DNA from: Lactococcus garvieae subsp. garvieae
GTDB lineage: Bacteria > Bacillota > Bacilli > Lactobacillales > Streptococcaceae
Assembly: GCF_029024465.1 (NCBI RefSeq)
Contig: NZ_CP118950.1
Span: 248,001 to 312,000 of the forward strand
Reading direction: 5' to 3'
Length of the DNA stretch: 64,000 nucleotides
Positions 17,063-54,938 of this stretch are shown in pieces. Each line of letters opens with the position of its first letter. Position 1 is the stretch's first letter. The notes under the pieces are model-generated. The model saw only the letters and a list, made by a program, of their open reading frames with translations, did no database searches and had not been told where the DNA came from. The position numbers and the translations under genes were made by a program.

Positions 17063-18691
<1,629 letters not shown>

Positions 18692-18778: not shown

Positions 18779-19924
18779 TTAAAATAAATTATCAAGGGCA
18801 GCTGTTATCTGCTCTTTTGATTTCTTAGTAACGTGGTTATAGATTGATAATGTTGTATTTGCATCAGCGTGTCCCACACGTTCCATTATTGCCTTTAGTG
18901 GTATATTTGATTCTGCTAGAATAGATACGTGTGTATGTCTAAATATGTGGCTAGTGATATTTTTTTCTAAACCAATTTTATTCCCCGCTCTTTTTATGAC
19001 AGGATTAAAAGCATGGATAGAAAGAGGATTTCCAAATCGTGATAAGAATATATAATCTTCTGGTTCGGTTGTAAACTTTAATGAATTTATTTTTTGTAAC
19101 TCTAAAAGAATATCAATTGCTTTATTGGGTAAGACTATAATTCTTTCAGAACTTTCGTTTTTTGTTGAAGTTTTTATGGCTTTATCCATTGTTGTTAAAG
19201 TATAATCCAGTGTTCCTTCTACACTAATTGATTTTCCATCAAAGTTCTTCCACTGAAGTGCTTGTAATTCACCATATCTTAGACCCGTCAAAACTAGAAA
19301 CTCTGAAATCATCCCATGAAGTTTATTGGAATTTTTAGAGTATAGAGCAGCAAGTAATAAATCCACTTCATCTTTTTCTAAATATTTTTCACTTAATTTC
19401 TTTTTGTTTTTTCGTTCAATTTCTCTTTTAGGTATTACTTTGGTTTTAGATACAGGATTTTGTTCTATATATCCTTTATCGACTGCAAAATTAAACATTG
19501 CTGAAATAGTTGTTCTTGTTTGTTTTGTGTAATTTAAAGAATAGTCTCCAAACGTATACATGTTATCTATTACCTTCATGACAAGTTCAGAAGTGATGTT
19601 TTTTACTAACATATCTTTGGTGATAGTAGGAAATACATGCTTATCTAAATAGAATGGGACTTTAATCCAGCTACTTCTTTTATTTTGAACTTTATAATAA
19701 CGAAACCATTCTGTGCAAAGATCTCCAAAGTTTATATTACTTTGGTTAGGGTCCGTCTTTAATTTATTATATATCTTATCCAATAGTATTTTCTGTGACT
19801 TTTTTATAATTTGGGGAGTGTCTTTTTCAATTACTATTGAACTGGTACGTGTTTTTCCTGTGTAAGGATCTTTATATCGCTCACGAAGATTAAATTTTCC
19901 ATCTTTCCTAGCTTCTACCCACAT
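18779..19924 (-). CDS. int: Prophage integrase (tyrosine recombinase)
   Basis: A 381-residue site-specific recombinase acting on the groEL attachment site. An N-terminal arm-binding domain (KFNLRERYKDPYTGKTR) and a core-binding domain (about 60-160) precede the catalytic domain with Arg in TGLRYGEL, HIFRHTHVS, VGHADANTT and the Tyr in SIYNHV. The ATG at 19924 follows AAGGAGTAGAAATCAA; the open frame 17 codons further upstream has no RBS. Leftward, adjacent to attL as usual. Confidence 0.95.
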   Translation of the reverse strand: MWVEARKDGKFNLRERYKDPYTGKTRTSSIVIEKDTPQIIKKSQKILLDKIYNKLKTDPNQSNINFGDLCTEWFRYYKVQNKRSSWIKVPFYLDKHVFPTITKDMLVKNITSELVMKVIDNMYTFGDYSLNYTKQTRTTISAMFNFAVDKGYIEQNPVSKTKVIPKREIERKNKKKLSEKYLEKDEVDLLLAALYSKNSNKLHGMISEFLVLTGLRYGELQALQWKNFDGKSISVEGTLDYTLTTMDKAIKTSTKNESSERIIVLPNKAIDILLELQKINSLKFTTEPEDYIFLSRFGNPLSIHAFNPVIKRAGNKIGLEKNITSHIFRHTHVSILAESNIPLKAIMERVGHADANTTLSIYNHVTKKSKEQITAALDNLF

Positions 19925-20003
19925 TTGATTTCTACTCCTTTTTCTAGTAAAATAGAGTACAAGAAAACTACACATTGACTGTGTCTTTTTATACTTAGTT
20001 GTT

Positions 20004-24681: not shown

Positions 24682-25503
24682 TTGATAGAAATTCAAGAAT
24701 ATGAGATGCATCTGATCGATAATGAGATCGCTGCAAACACACGAAAAAACTATTTGAATACTTTGCGGCAGTTGGATGCATTTTTGGAAATTAATGATTG
24801 TGCGTTAAGTAAAGCAGCATTGATTAAGTTTAAGCAATACTTGCGAGAACATGAGTACAAACCTAAAAAACACTACACCATGAAAACCATTAATCAGAAA
24901 ATCACAAGTATTAATGTATATCTCAATTGGTTAGAGCGAGAAGAATTCATAACTGATAAACTTTCTATCAAGCTTTTGAAAGCTCAAACAATGGAACACA
25001 GGGAATCTATCACAAAGAGCGACTATAAAAAGTTGTTAAAGAATTGTGATGATGAAGAATTAGAACTTTTCATTCTGACAATTGGAAATACTGGTGTACG
25101 AATAACTGAGGTTTGTTCTCTCAAGGTATCTGATCTCAACCAAAAGACTATTTTAGTTGAGAATAAAGGGAAAGAACGAGCAATTGCCATGCCACAATTT
25201 TTGAAGAAGAGATTGAAAAAATTTGTGCGGACTAATGGTATTACAGATATTATCTTTGCAAAAGACCAAAGAACGTATCGTGCGGACTTGAAAAACCTTG
25301 CAGGCAAAGCAAAAGTGAATAAGGACAAAGTTTATCCTCACTCCATCAGACATTACTTTGCAAAAGCATTCTTGGAAAATGGTGGAGATTCTACAGTTTT
25401 GCAGCAGTTGCTGGGCCATAAACAGATAGCAACAACAACTATTTATACCAAGCTCAATTCTAATGAGTTGAGCGAACAATTTAGCAACATAAAAAATATT
25501 TAA
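24682..25503 (+). CDS. Second tyrosine recombinase
   Basis: A 273-residue XerD-like protein without an arm-binding domain. Core-binding domain about 1-100; catalytic residues present: Arg in GVRITEVCSL, HSIRHYFAKAF, GHKQIATTT and Tyr in TIYTKL. TTG start at 24682 behind GGAGGTGA. The true integrase is beside attL, so this one probably has another substrate: a dimer-resolution, inversion or integration site. The inverted repeats at 25709/26146 are candidates. Confidence 0.88.
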   Translation: MIEIQEYEMHLIDNEIAANTRKNYLNTLRQLDAFLEINDCALSKAALIKFKQYLREHEYKPKKHYTMKTINQKITSINVYLNWLEREEFITDKLSIKLLKAQTMEHRESITKSDYKKLLKNCDDEELELFILTIGNTGVRITEVCSLKVSDLNQKTILVENKGKERAIAMPQFLKKRLKKFVRTNGITDIIFAKDQRTYRADLKNLAGKAKVNKDKVYPHSIRHYFAKAFLENGGDSTVLQQLLGHKQIATTTIYTKLNSNELSEQFSNIKNI

Positions 25504-30725: not shown

Positions 30726-31256
30726 ATGAAATTAGATAAAGTTGCAAATTCTGGTAATGATGAGTTTTATACACCAGAGTATGCAATAAAACCACTATTA
30801 AAATATATTCCGAAAAATGCTAAGGTTTGGTGTCCATTTGATACATCAGACAGCCTATTTGTGAAATTACTACTTGAACACGGCTGTGAAGTAGTGAATA
30901 CACATATTTCACGAGGAGAAGATTTCTTTGAGTTATCAAATAGTGAAATAGCGGACTGGTGTGACTACATTATTAGTAATCCTCCTTATTCTAGGAAAAC
31001 AGAAGTGTTGGAGGAGCTGTTCATGACCGAAAAACCATTTGCTATGCTATTGGGGTGTGTTGGCCTATTTGAGAGCCAAAAAAGATTTGAAATGTTTAGG
31101 GATAATAGTTTTGAGATTATGATGTTTAATCGACGTATCTCATATTTCCAAAGTTATGAAGAACAGAAACCTTCAAAAAATCCTCCGTTTTCTTCATGGT
31201 ATTTGTGCAAGGGAATTTTAAATAAACCGTTTGTGTTCGAAGAGGTAGTCAAATGA
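30726..31256 (+). CDS. Orphan DNA N6-adenine methyltransferase
   Basis: A 176-residue protein with the adenine-methylase motif NPPY (ISNPPYSRKTEVLEEL, about residue 90) and EFYTPEYAIKPLL at the N-terminus. A CPFDTSD segment stands where an FxGxG AdoMet motif would be. No restriction enzyme is nearby. Likely protects phage DNA from host restriction or marks it; target unknown. Start set by AAGGAGAAAGAA. Confidence 0.75.
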   Translation: MKLDKVANSGNDEFYTPEYAIKPLLKYIPKNAKVWCPFDTSDSLFVKLLLEHGCEVVNTHISRGEDFFELSNSEIADWCDYIISNPPYSRKTEVLEELFMTEKPFAMLLGCVGLFESQKRFEMFRDNSFEIMMFNRRISYFQSYEEQKPSKNPPFSSWYLCKGILNKPFVFEEVVK

Positions 31257-51131: not shown

Positions 51132-52187
51132 ATGAAAAAACTTATTAAAGGGGCAACGCTTGCGATTCTAGTTATAACAAGCTTTGGCGCAACGCGTCAA
51201 GCCTTTGCGGCAGTGGGTGAGCAAGGCGTGGACTGGTCGCATTACAATGGCTATCAAGGGAACTTTGGTTATGCCAGCGACCAATTCTCAATTTCTCAAA
51301 TTGGGGGGACTTACGGTGGCTACTATGTGGATCAGTTGACTTATAATAGTCAGGTTCAAAATACATTGGAACAAGGTAAGCGAGCACATAGTTATATTTA
51401 TTATGAAGTGGGTAATTCGATTCCGATTGCAAAGGGGGCGCTTGACCGTTACTTGCCAAAAATTGCCACACCTAAAGGCTCTATTGTCGCTCTTGATTAT
51501 GAAAGTGGGGCGAGTGGAAGTAAGCAGGCGAACACAGATGCTATTCTTTATGGAATGCGACGTGTGAAAGAAGCAGGATATACACCAATGTATTACAGCT
51601 ACAAGCCTTACACAATAGCAAATGTGGACTACAAACGAATTATTAAAGAGTTTCCTGGATCACTTTGGATTGCGGAATATCCAAACTATGAAGTAACTCC
51701 AACTCCAAACTGGAATTTCTTCCCAAGTATGGATGATATTGGCATTTTCCAATTTACCTCAACTTATGTTGCAGGGGGATTAGACGGTAATATTGACCTT
51801 ACAGGCATCACGGATAAGGGTTATGATGGAAAAGTACCAGACCCAGCACCGACACCAAACCCAACTCCAACACCAAGCCCAAGTAAAAAAACACACATCG
51901 TTCAATATGGCGACACATTGAGCAGCATTGCTTACAATTGGGGCACAAGCTGGCAAGAATTGGCACGTCAGAACGCTTTGAGTAATCCTAACCTTATTTA
52001 TGCTGGTCAAGCAATCAGCTACTCAGGGGGCTCAAATGCGGCAGCAGGCGGAGTTTATACCGTACAATACGGAGATAACCTCTCCGTTATTGCACAACGT
52101 TTAGGAACAACTGTGCAGCACCTTGTTTCAAGTAATGGAATTCAAAACCCTAACTTGATTTATGCAGGACAAACTCTAAATTATTAA
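51132..52187 (+). CDS. Secreted endolysin: GH25 lysozyme with two LysM
   Basis: 351 residues. Sec signal peptide (1-26, cut after AFA); GH25 muramidase (about 30-220) with VDWSHYNGY and the catalytic acidic pair in ALDYESG; Pro/Thr linker (about 236-253); LysM at about 257-300 and 309-351. A signal peptide means Sec export, so the holin would only need to activate it by depolarising the membrane. RBS GAAGGAGAATTTTAGAAA. Confidence 0.93.
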
Positions 52188-52196
52188 TATAAATTT

Positions 52197-52230
52197 ACCC
52201 CTAGCCATAACGGTTAGGGGTGTTTTTTGT
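52197..52230 (+). terminator. Late-operon terminator
   Basis: ACCCCTAGCC pairs with GGTTAGGGGT (one G-T pair), followed by TGTTTTTTG. Confidence 0.88.
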
Positions 52231-52239
52231 TGTGATCAG

Positions 52240-52325
52240 TTTACAATGTCTGAAAGAGTTGATATAATTACTTTGCCCATAAATAGGGTATTCATCTAAG
52301 GCGCCTGCTTTATGTAGGCGTTTTA
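52240..52325 (+). ncRNA. Short RNA unit 1
   Basis: TTTACA (52240-52245), 17 bp, extended -10 TGATATAAT (ends 52268). RNA of about 50 nt ending in CGCCTGC/GTAGGCG plus TTTT. No ORF. Confidence 0.7.
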
Positions 52326-52365
52326 ATATTTGTCCCTTATATTATTAGGTGCACTATATGCGATT

Positions 52366-52438
52366 TGTTATAATATGACTATAGACCTTAAGCCTCCGTG
52401 ACCCTCGCCATTGTGTTCACTTTAGGAGGTTTTTTTAT
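52366..52438 (+). ncRNA. Short RNA unit 2
   Basis: TG-T-TATAAT at 52366-52374; RNA of about 55 nt ending in a CCTCC...GGAGG hairpin with inner GTGA/TCAC pairing and T7. Confidence 0.65.
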
Positions 52439-52451
52439 TTTACATTATCGC

Positions 52452-52621
52452 TTGCCAAAGTTTAATTATTTCTGGTATACTGATGCATATAAGCGAATTT
52501 CTTTTTATTTCTTTCTAAACAAATTCTCTATTTTAAAAGATGTGGACTTATATAAATACTCATTTTAGACCAAATCATGAGTAAATACCCCTTTCGCGCC
52601 TGTGTTTGTGCAGGCGCTTTA
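52452..52621 (+). ncRNA. Short RNA unit 3
   Basis: TTGCCA (52452-52457), 18 bp, TATACT (52476-52481, TG-extended). RNA of about 130 nt: hairpin ACTCAT/ATGAGT (52558-52582) whose loop shows GACCAAATC, then terminator GCGCCTG/CAGGCGC and a weak T run. Confidence 0.65.
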
Positions 52622-52624
52622 ATG

Positions 52625-52713
52625 TGCTATAATAAATGTATCAGGCATAAACCATTTACCAGAATTACATATGCCTGAGGAGAACTCCCTTATAAGGTCT
52701 GAGGGAGTTTTAT
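52625..52713 (+). ncRNA. Short RNA unit 4
   Basis: TG-C-TATAAT at 52625-52633; RNA of about 72 nt with the perfect hairpin TCAGGCAT/ATGCCTGA (52641-52678) and the perfect terminator AACTCCCT/AGGGAGTT (52683-52709). Confidence 0.75.
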
Positions 52714-52794
52714 GCTATAATAGATATGGCAAAAATAAAACAGTTTATAGTCTTTTGATCTATTAGTCCACGTCTTGCCAACGTGGCTTTTTTT
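52713..52794 (+). ncRNA. Short RNA unit 5
   Basis: TG-C-TATAAT at 52713-52721, starting in the U tract of unit 4. RNA of about 65 nt ending in CCACGT/ACGTGG plus CTTTTTTTG. Confidence 0.7.
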
Positions 52795-52876
52795 GATATA
52801 ATAATATTAGCTTCGTTTTGACCAAATCAGAAGCCATCTTTTTCTAAACACTTGCATTAAGCAGGTGTTTTTTTGT
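52794..52876 (+). ncRNA. Short RNA unit 6
   Basis: TG-A-TATAAT at 52794-52802, starting in the U tract of unit 5. RNA of about 65 nt: hairpin GCTTC/GAAGC with GACCAAATCA in its loop, then terminator AACACTTGC/GCAGGTGTT plus T7. Confidence 0.7.
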
Positions 52877-52885
52877 TTTTCTTAG

Positions 52886-52922
52886 CTCCCGGTTCCGTGA
52901 CGGGGAGTTTTTTTGCTATAAT
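52886..52922 (+). promoter_or_regulatory. Terminator then extended -10 promoter of the Kiwa-like operon
   Basis: CTCCC/GGGAG hairpin with T7 (52886-52914), running straight into TG-C-TATAAT (52914-52922). The gene starts 25 bp later with a normal RBS. Confidence 0.75.
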
Positions 52923-52947
52923 TGAAGTACTAGAGAGGTAGGATAAA

Positions 52948-53952
52948 ATGGTAAAGCAAGAAGAAATTATTGAAGAATTAAAACCTATTAGAATGGCATT
53001 GCATGGCGATTTAAGTTATGAGGTGAATTTCTACTTTGAATATACGGATAGTGGAAAAACGATTGATGATTTCAGATATGCCTTGGCAACTACTGATGAA
53101 AAAACACGGAAATCTATGTTGGAAAGATTGAGTGCAACTTTTTCAGAAAGTGCTATTTCCCAGTATAATCTTAATGAATTTGATATTCTTCGTAATGATG
53201 AGAACACATTTTACTATATTGACAAAGATAAATTTGATAATGCTAAAAAAGTGATAGAAAATCTAGAATCAGAAGCTTTTACTCCGGAAGATGATTTATC
53301 CGTTCTTGGCTCAAATCTCTCAAAAGTAAAGGGAGCTATTGTTGAGATAAAAATAAAAGGTACACTCCCATTTTATTTATTTACAAAAGTAGAAACTTTT
53401 AACGGATTCAAAAAAGGAAAATATCCGCTTTCTTTAGGAAATATTGATAAGAATGGAGTTAGAGACTTGACAGATTCTAAAACAATATTTGGTATTAGAG
53501 ATTATATTGGTTTCTACTATCATAATGGACACTTTATCATAAATTCCAAAGTTGATGCGGAGCGAATGTTATTCTTATCAAGTGAGTATAAAAAGCGAGC
53601 ACTTGAGACAGTATCGGACCTCATCCAATTTAGATCAGTACTTGTAAATATTGAAACTTTGAAAGACAGTTTGGGTGGCAAAGGTGGTCATGTTTTGTCA
53701 AGGATGTTAATGCGAGTTTCCGTTGAAAGTCTCAAGGAAAAATTTAAGACAGCAGAAGCTAAGAAAAAGGCTCTAGATGATTTACAGGAGATTGTAAGTG
53801 ATGAACGATTTGTAGATGATTTTGGCGAGATTGAAATAAATCTTGATTCTCTAGAAATTAGATATACAGAAGAAAATAAATTCCAATTTGTATCATTGAT
53901 AACTGATAGAGCAGCAGAGACTTTATTTTTAGGGAAAAAGGTGATGGATTAA
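52948..53952 (+). CDS. KwaB-like DUF4868 protein
   Basis: 334 residues, no signal or membrane segment. The middle and end resemble DUF4868, the KwaB domain: an AIVEIKIKG...YLFTKV strand pair (about 128-150), then DYIGFYYHNGHFIINSKVDAERMLFLSSEYKKRA (about 185-220; the pattern of a self-description strand, a turn and a helix typical of the family). In Kiwa, KwaB acts with the membrane protein KwaA after phage DNA entry. Here the membrane gene follows instead of precedes. The AT-rich composition differs from the late genes. RBS AGAGGTAGGATAAA. Assignment by pattern, not search. Confidence 0.6.
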   Translation: MVKQEEIIEELKPIRMALHGDLSYEVNFYFEYTDSGKTIDDFRYALATTDEKTRKSMLERLSATFSESAISQYNLNEFDILRNDENTFYYIDKDKFDNAKKVIENLESEAFTPEDDLSVLGSNLSKVKGAIVEIKIKGTLPFYLFTKVETFNGFKKGKYPLSLGNIDKNGVRDLTDSKTIFGIRDYIGFYYHNGHFIINSKVDAERMLFLSSEYKKRALETVSDLIQFRSVLVNIETLKDSLGGKGGHVLSRMLMRVSVESLKEKFKTAEAKKKALDDLQEIVSDERFVDDFGEIEINLDSLEIRYTEENKFQFVSLITDRAAETLFLGKKVMD

Positions 53953-53953
53953 A

Positions 53954-54622
53954 ATGTGGATTTATGTGATGAGTTTGTTTGTTTTTCTATTTGCAATGAT
54001 TCAAATTTTATCTTGGAAAATTTCATTATTCTTCGTTTCATTTTCTCCACTATTTGTGATTTTATCTATTAAAGCATTTTTAGAATTATATTCAAAAAAT
54101 ATCGAGAATAAAAAGTTATCGGAAGAAATAGTCAATATTGTAATTAAATATTTTGTGGAACTTTCTCAAAATTTCTTCTGGCTTGTTGTTCTAATCCTAT
54201 CTATTATGCCTCCTGTCATATTTTTGATACGGATGGGAATATCAATTGTCAGAAAAGGGAATCAGGTTAGCCTTGAAATTAGTGAGCCTTCTCAATTGGA
54301 TGATGGAATAGTGAGTTATGTGATGACTTATATTGTTCCGCTCACTTCTTTAAGTTTTAGTGCAAGCCTTTCAGAATACATAAGCAATATACTATTATTT
54401 TTGATTATCATGGTGTTGTATGTTCGCATGAATTTGGTTTATCTGAACCCTGTTTTAATAATTCTTGGTTTTAACATCTTCAAGGCTACAATAAATGGAA
54501 GTGAGCGTTATATATTAACGAGAAATAGTTTTCCGCAATTTGGAAGTCTTTCAAAAAGAACAAGTGTGGCAATGCTAAAATTGAATAACAACTTTTACTT
54601 TATTCGAAAAATACATGAGTGA
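53954..54622 (+). CDS. Membrane partner of the KwaB-like protein
   Basis: 222 residues with about four or five hydrophobic segments (about 3-22, 24-45, 74-95, 110-140 weak, 145-178). It starts one base after the KwaB-like stop, so the two are co-translated. The segment YVRMNLVYLNPVLIILGFNI gives a distinctive membrane-edge motif. It would occupy the KwaA role; I cannot show sequence homology to KwaA. The start lacks a separate strong RBS (AAAAAGGTGATGGATTAAA). Confidence 0.6.
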   Translation: MWIYVMSLFVFLFAMIQILSWKISLFFVSFSPLFVILSIKAFLELYSKNIENKKLSEEIVNIVIKYFVELSQNFFWLVVLILSIMPPVIFLIRMGISIVRKGNQVSLEISEPSQLDDGIVSYVMTYIVPLTSLSFSASLSEYISNILLFLIIMVLYVRMNLVYLNPVLIILGFNIFKATINGSERYILTRNSFPQFGSLSKRTSVAMLKLNNNFYFIRKIHE

Positions 54623-54666
54623 ATATCTGTCAGCTCAAGGCGACTTTTTGTTAAATTATCAAAATA

Positions 54667-54724
54667 TGCTACAATAAATATCTGTTCTTAATAGGTGAAT
54701 CTCTATGATAATAGAGATTTTTGT
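54667..54724 (+). ncRNA. Short RNA unit 7 (downstream of the operon)
   Basis: TG-C-TACAAT at 54667-54675, about 20 nt, then the perfect terminator AATCTCTAT/ATAGAGATT (54698-54719) plus TTTTG. Same design as the upstream units. Confidence 0.6.
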
Positions 54725-54921: not shown

Positions 54922-54938
54922 ATGGGTGGCATGATGTA
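54922..54938 (+). repeat. attR core
   Basis: 17 bp identical to 18674-18690. It restores the coding sequence for the end of GroEL, followed here by an A giving TAA. Confidence 0.92.

Follow-up and report, generated by a model that had tools for sequence, protein, structure and literature searches.

Putative small-RNA cassettes between the lysin gene and attR of a Lactococcus garvieae prophage, with relatives in other lactococcal phages

Prophage setting and layout of the array

The window, that is, the whole stretch of 64,000 nt analysed here (Lactococcus garvieae subsp. garvieae, contig NZ_CP118950.1, positions 248,001 to 312,000, forward strand), holds a prophage of about 36 kb inserted at the end of groEL (17066-18691, with a Cpn60 domain). 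The prophage has an integrase gene at one end and is bounded by a 17-bp att repeat, which is the longest exact repeat common to both prophage ends. Between its lysin gene and attR is an array of short putative transcription units, which adjoins the lysin gene. A second tyrosine recombinase gene is present within the prophage at 24682-25503. The features, with positions counted from the first base of the window, are as follows.

18674..18690, no strand: attL, copy of the 17-bp direct repeat, in the 3' end of groEL
18779..19975, minus strand: tyrosine integrase, left prophage end (PF00589, E 2.9e-29)
51132..52187, plus strand: endolysin (GH25 and two LysM domains, Pfam), with its own terminator at 52196-52222
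52240..52330, plus strand: unit A; -35 TTTACA at 52240, -10 at 52260-52268, RNA about 52275-52330; 5' hairpin, single-stranded UAUUCAUC, terminator 52297-52325
52366..52437, plus strand: unit U2; -10 at 52366-52374, RNA about 52381-52437, long weak terminator hairpin
52473..52622, plus strand: unit U3; -10 TGGTATACT at 52473, RNA about 52488-52622; hairpin 52557-52583 presenting GACCAAATC, terminator 52596-52617
52625..52712, plus strand: unit C; -10 at 52625, RNA about 52640-52712; 5' hairpin 52641-52678, terminator 52684-52708
52713..52795, plus strand: unit B; -10 at 52713, RNA from 52728; 5' GGCAA (52728-52732) able to pair with UUGCC (52775-52779) in the loop of terminator hairpin 52768-52786
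52794..52874, plus strand: unit D; -10 at 52794, within the T tract of unit B, RNA about 52809-52874; hairpin 52810-52834 presenting GACCAAATC, terminator 52846-52870
52871..52914, plus strand: 3' remnant (terminator) of unit J, the promoter half being absent here
52914..52922, plus strand: promoter of kwaBA; extended -10 TGCTATAAT, placed where the preceding T tract ends
52948..53952, plus strand: kwaB (Kiwa); PADLOC KwaB E 1.4e-19, Pfam KwaB 25.1 bits (cut-off 26.3)
53954..54622, plus strand: kwaA (Kiwa); PADLOC KwaA E 1.4e-30, no Pfam match
54664..54724, plus strand: unit E; -10 TACAAT at 54670-54675, RNA about 54681-54724, two hairpins
54922..54938, no strand: attR, copy of the 17-bp repeat, right prophage end

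The adjacent genes, described in an earlier sequence-only reading as a two-gene module, are a Kiwa defence system as judged by these profile matches. KwaB is divergent here, its Pfam score falling just below the cut-off. The gene order is kwaB-kwaA (52948-54622); the usual order in Kiwa is kwaA-kwaB.

Between 52188 and 52947, the plus strand carries seven extended -10 boxes and the minus strand none, against a mean of 0.08 and a maximum of 2 in 300 dinucleotide shuffles of the same stretch. Intrinsic terminators are distributed likewise, with seven on the plus strand and none on the minus strand (shuffles: mean 0.41, maximum 4), and the density of extended -10 boxes on the plus strand of the window peaks in this 760-nt stretch. 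The sequence-only reading had listed six boxes, at 52260, 52366, 52473, 52625, 52713 and 52794, and all six start coordinates were borne out; a seventh, at 52914, serves kwaB. That reading had also placed a hairpin and T run after every box. The terminator scan, which allowed loops of up to 12, agreed for five of the six units and did not list U2, whose weaker hairpin has a long interior, eight pairs (by eye) and a fold z of -2.06; the T runs of A and U3 are short and interrupted. A looser -35/-10 scan of 51500-54000 gave 13 promoter-like sites against 9.8 +/- 3.3 in shuffles, which is hardly an excess, and the promoter signal is therefore the extended -10 box rather than a -35 box. Terminators in 51500-54000 numbered six against 1.1 expected. 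Most of the promoters consist of an extended -10 box alone and were called by consensus only.

The boxes at 52625, 52713, 52794 and 52914 overlap or closely trail the T tract of the preceding terminator, in agreement with what had been claimed for several units. Of 70 extended -10 boxes in 14 arrays, 41 follow a T run (at least three T) that ends no more than 5 nt upstream, a count that is without shuffle control and includes some runs belonging to no terminator. The stretch had been described as free of ORFs, which holds for every unit taken singly at a length of at least 40 aa; one 56-aa ORF (52398-52568, plus strand, GTG start), the only one of at least 40 aa in the stretch, reaches from the last part of U2 through the U2 terminator into the first part of U3. 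The array continues beyond the end first given for it, since the additional unit E (about 54664-54724) lies after Kiwa and before attR.

Folded as single strands, A (z -4.85), C (z -4.89) and D (z -4.1) were far better than shuffles, and E (z -3.2), U3 (z -2.6) and U2 (z -2.1) moderately better; B resembled its shuffles (z -0.60) when its pseudoknot was left out. Five short two-copy repeat families were the only repeats found, without the regular direct repeats of a CRISPR array or crRNA-like decoy. At the Rfam gathering threshold, the window and 18 related loci gave only tRNA and rRNA matches; 20 subthreshold matches over the array were judged to be chance.

Recurrence and reordering of the units

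Single units recur, in altered order, downstream of the lysin gene in other L. garvieae phages, which upholds the expectation of the sequence-only reading that they would be conserved in related prophages. In the phage collection the array matched four records, all of L. garvieae phages, and the genome of the window (G000) has a second array in which single units also recur. Relatives of A are present in Bacchus, L020, L025, PLgT-1 and TB25, with a 29-nt partial match in L019; those of C are in PLgT-1, Bacchus and L017 and, more distantly (by eye), in TB25, L020, L012 and L025. Unit D matches both L020 and the second G000 array at 81 of 81 bases, and the J remnant is 88-93% identical to the J units of L019, L021, L023 and that second array. 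Unit E was matched in 10 of 16 other arrays, two of these (L019 and L023) being near copies. Among 16 other arrays compared, U2 had no relative and U3 had none as a whole unit.

Read by eye, the order in the window is A-U2-U3-C-B-D-J (3' part)-kwaBA-E, that in L020 is A-B-D-two longer units-C relative-further unit-40-aa ORF-E, and that in L025 is A-C relative-D relative-E. All 9,026 bases of L022, a contig from a viral collection, are identical to the window, and L022 is thus no independent case. The second array of G000 (L012 5500-9800, minus strand) lies directly before an rRNA operon and follows lysin-like and transposase-like genes (both by eye), in the manner of a prophage remnant.

A two-unit pair of PLgT-1 (L010 7676-7836) was matched, whole or in part, by 74 of 50,697 phage records, a count that includes duplicate GenBank and RefSeq entries; 43 matched over at least 80% of the query, and 62 are named Lactococcus and 12 Bacteriophage sp. 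Units, each taken as a terminator with a -10 box upstream, were also counted in PLgT-1, PLg-TB25, TP712, bIL286, bIL309 and phiLC3. The lysin-att intervals of these six phages (14,605 nt) held 32 units, using 29 distinct -10 boxes, and the remaining 216,818 nt of that strand held 10; on the opposite strand, the intervals contained four and the remainder 25. When ORFs of at least 80 aa on either strand were masked, 30 units were counted in 8,518 nt of the intervals and none in 23,640 nt of the rest of the late strand, and this masked control strengthens the grammar. Because the phages were chosen from earlier matches, the counts show where the units lie and not how frequent such phages are. The DNA is AT-rich and the loose promoter scan was hardly above its shuffles, as chance clustering of signals in AT-rich intergenic DNA would have it; the shuffles of the array, the six-phage counts, the masked control and the conservation all speak against such clustering, which is exceedingly improbable.

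Among 18 genomes of the genus, family B was found in five, E in the same five and KwaA in one; the five with both B and E appear to be the garvieae group. A search beyond the genus gave B in five of 295 Streptococcaceae genomes, again the five of the genus, under stricter filters that lose weak matches. Some B copies in chromosomes adjoin prs and a gene for a NifS-like aminotransferase, YjbR, clpP or a DUF1093 gene, and the family is thus common to phages and chromosomes. The copy beside prs is possibly an old phage remnant, because a small ORF there matches the phage family phrog_1379. Copies at L013 6544-6620 and L018 1542-1621 adjoin a gene for a sigma-region-4-like regulator, which in L013 scored below the Pfam cut-off and matched PHROG transcription regulators and in L018 was recognised by eye; these two are possibly satellite or element remnants.

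The sequence-only reading had suggested guide or trigger RNAs for the adjacent genes, and the RNAs could more generally be antitoxin, trigger or guide parts of the adjoining defence module, here Kiwa. Their position fits such a role, an Abi_2 gene directly follows a unit in the same interval of TP712, and the AbiF protein of a Clostridioides difficile phage is neutralised by a neighbouring RNA (PMC12373285, available portion). The co-occurrence counts given above argue otherwise: B and E occur in genomes without Kiwa, on which ground these two families were rejected as Kiwa guide or trigger RNAs across the 18 genomes, and this makes a defence component improbable as an explanation of the array. 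A link to Kiwa may hold for U2 and U3 alone, because neither was found in the 16 other arrays. A KwaB scan of the contigs of close relatives gave 32 stretches that fit the pattern, none of which was confirmed.

Other arrangements were observed in related phages. In TP712 (L066 1180-1290), a promoter-RNA-terminator unit lies directly before the Abi_2 gene (orf57), as in RNA-controlled AbiF systems, and its Rfam matches were subthreshold only. The lysin-att interval of TP712 also holds a tRNA-like sequence (2800-2860) whose anticodon arm is very short, as does bIL286 (L067) by eye; PLgT-1 and D6890 have a full tRNA at that place, annotated as tRNA-Met in D6890. PLgT-1 (L010 5150-5410) and phiLC3 (L076, about 30950-31200) share the core GGTGGACACTA and an extended -10 box in a long stretch before small ORFs. 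Two of these ORFs in PLgT-1 match different parts of the PBECR4 nuclease (E 8.9e-4, below the cut-off, and 3.1e-7); the phiLC3 ORF tested there gave no match. The PLgT-1 copy holds ATCACCTCCTTTC, which was found once in L012, at the 3' end of 16S rRNA.

Conservation at the RNA level

The 5' end of the B RNA, GGCAA when the start is set 7 nt after TATAAT, is complementary to UUGCC in the loop of the terminator hairpin. The 47 matches to B were reduced by eye to 30 distinct places, near-identical copies such as those of PLgT-1 (L010 and L016) being dropped. Four places (L044:684, L038:1490, L020:11256 and window:24478; 28-38 bits) have no B-type pairing and were left out of the 26 loci compared; L019:1768 (27.9 bits), which has it, was retained. 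At least five paired bases between 5' end and loop were found at 22 of the 26 loci by script and at 24 by eye, the script having chosen the wrong hairpin at L014:7637 and L042:1501, and the pairing is broken in L032 (mismatch) and L036 (only four pairs). Compensating variants are GGUAA/UUACC (L039), AGGCAGA/UCUGCCU (L014 and L042, which look like one locus in two species) and AGGCAG/CUGCCU (L019), in which both pairing sides change while the stem varies. The covariation of B comes from these four variant loci, because the paired bases do not vary in most members; all five pairs are constant in the seed alignment of 15, which by itself therefore gives no evidence for them.

The 5' hairpin of C has no T run behind it and is not a terminator. 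Its eight copies have four stem sequences, two of them related, and the loop AAACC (AAACT in L025). A loop-loop kissing interaction of C, AACCU/AGGUU, looked good by eye in PLgT-1, was not kept in L017 or L025 and was rejected. In D, GACCAAATC is found in the loops of three unrelated stems, again of non-terminator hairpins. Unit E has an invariant 5' helix and a terminator helix that changes on both sides at two pairs; its covariation shows no more than a terminator, because a terminator alone would explain those changes. The conserved features of B, C and D, as they appear in the aligned copies, are not demanded by terminator function alone, and conservation as RNA, beyond DNA signals, is apparent for these three families.

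The units might be relics or building parts, that is, promoters and terminators serving to drive the accessory genes of the interval or to insulate them, with short RNAs that have no function. Accessory genes in the interval use the same promoter type, as kwaBA does here, and terminators alone would account for conserved and covarying hairpins, E showing nothing more; depositors also annotated terminators there in TPW22 and BK5-T. However, B keeps its loops and 5' ends, C and D have non-terminator hairpins with changed stems and kept loops, the 5' part of E is conserved, and copies exist outside prophages. Functional RNAs are favoured over such relics because of the compensating variants of B and the C and D loops on differing stems, and the relic explanation is considered unlikely. 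Some units could instead encode very short peptides: the TB25 interval holds a 40-aa ORF with a family of its own (phrog_31683), and the depositors of Tuc2009 and phiLC3 annotated ORFs over a PLgT-1-like unit. That none of the window units contains an ORF at or above the 40-aa floor of the test, and that conservation sits in hairpin loops and 5' ends, makes coding a very improbable role.

A search of five genomes and of twelve further sequences (window, phages and contigs) gave no convincing target for the D loop or the A/G motif. With at most one mismatch, the D-loop complement search TTTWGACCAAATCA gave 56 places in the five genomes against 21 for the reversed control, the excess being present in all five. 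Three of the 56 are array units of G000 themselves; the surroundings of 12, none in G000, were mostly inside genes (by eye) and had no start-site pattern. The A/G motif TAGGSTATTCATC, again with at most one mismatch, gave 27 places against 15 for its control. Among the 25 that were read, three are array units of G000 and one is an A-like unit in G008, and the others had no start-site pattern. Exact complements in the twelve window, phage and contig sequences were the units themselves. Hfq was not found in G000 by a search that gave matches in 5 of 14 control genomes. Cold-shock proteins are possible among the RNA partners, because a csp gene shares the lysin-att interval of TB25; a Csp gene is also present in the matching bIL312 stretch.

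A candidate small-RNA island and its relation to known systems

It seems fairly probable that the stretch belongs to an island of small RNAs located between lysin and attP in lactococcal temperate phages, composed of exchangeable regulatory RNA cassettes that are expressed in the lysogen. The sequences themselves show the grammar, its strand and place, the reuse of units in varied orders and the conserved RNA-level features of B, C and D. Each unit would be a complete minimal gene, in which an extended -10 promoter (mostly with no clear -35) directs an RNA of about 44-135 nt that is closed by an intrinsic terminator; the T tract of this terminator often leads directly into the TG of the next -10 box. 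Units would be exchanged among phages singly or in small groups, and Kiwa, with a promoter of the same type, would be a further cassette and not the partner of the array. The battery of prophage small RNAs proposed by the sequence-only reading gains comparative support from unit sharing and RNA-level conservation. Its expression from the lysogen is a prediction: transcription of the units is expected to be constitutive there, because the promoters look constitutive and the terminators would shut out late lysin transcription. The RNAs would work in trans, their conserved loops or single-stranded segments being offered to a protein or to RNAs of the host or of a rival phage. Copies of family B also adjoin ordinary host genes, and the family would represent the phage form of a host RNA family or a competitor for it.

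DicF is a base-pairing small RNA encoded by a prophage. Prophage small RNAs that act by base pairing include the Pas RNAs of Escherichia coli; like the units described here, such RNAs are small, carried by prophages and horizontally spread, and sometimes several occur in one prophage (PMC13192938, available portion). Unlike Pas and DicF, the array strings together many unrelated short units head to tail, and bases are often common to promoter and terminator; its host is Gram-positive and gave no Hfq match, and none of the units belongs to an Rfam family at the gathering threshold. The LhrC RNAs of Listeria and the Qrr and csRNA groups are tandem multicopy loci whose copies belong to one family. 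These also comprise several short RNAs with their own promoters and terminators; in the array, by contrast, neighbours come from different families and are reshuffled between phages. Type III toxin-antitoxin systems are defence units of an RNA plus an effector. As with AbiF and RCd22 (PMC12373285, available portion), a short RNA gene would adjoin a defence gene in a prophage; unlike that pair, no constant protein neighbour was observed for the main families here.

Prophages of L. garvieae carry extra low-GC genes after the lysis module, including csp and AbiF-like genes (PMC5431838, available portion), and the array occupies the place that this accessory region has, between lysin and attP, in lactococcal P335 phages and in those of L. 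garvieae (PMC5431838, available portion; TPW22 and BK5-T records). The terms non-coding, sRNA and intergenic had no matches in the available main text of PMC5431838. The stretches compared in TPW22 are annotated with terminators and repeats and those in BK5-T with terminators, and none with RNA genes. For MG1363, 193 small RNAs are listed (PMC13109727, available portion). Tandem small-RNA copies are already known. So are single prophage small RNAs (PMC13192938, available portion). No description of the present layout was recognised in a literature search outside which most subscription papers lay, and one may be in print elsewhere.

A more specific picture is offered only tentatively, and is doubtful as a whole. 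The lysin-attP interval might be a platform for RNA cassettes, an RNA counterpart to a defence island, in which whole small-RNA genes come, go and change order at a common junction, the T tract of one unit's terminator starts the next extended -10 box, the 5' end of B is locked into its terminator loop, and the phage copies of B mimic the host copies or soak up their partners.

Lactococcal phages are well sequenced, yet the records examined annotate the lysin-attP interval, besides accessory genes, with terminators, with small unknown ORFs or with nothing. If the units are true RNA genes, such a pair is present, at least in part, in 74 public phage records, and laboratory phages and hosts (TP712, bIL286, phiLC3 and Tuc2009) could reveal the role of RNA batteries in prophages.
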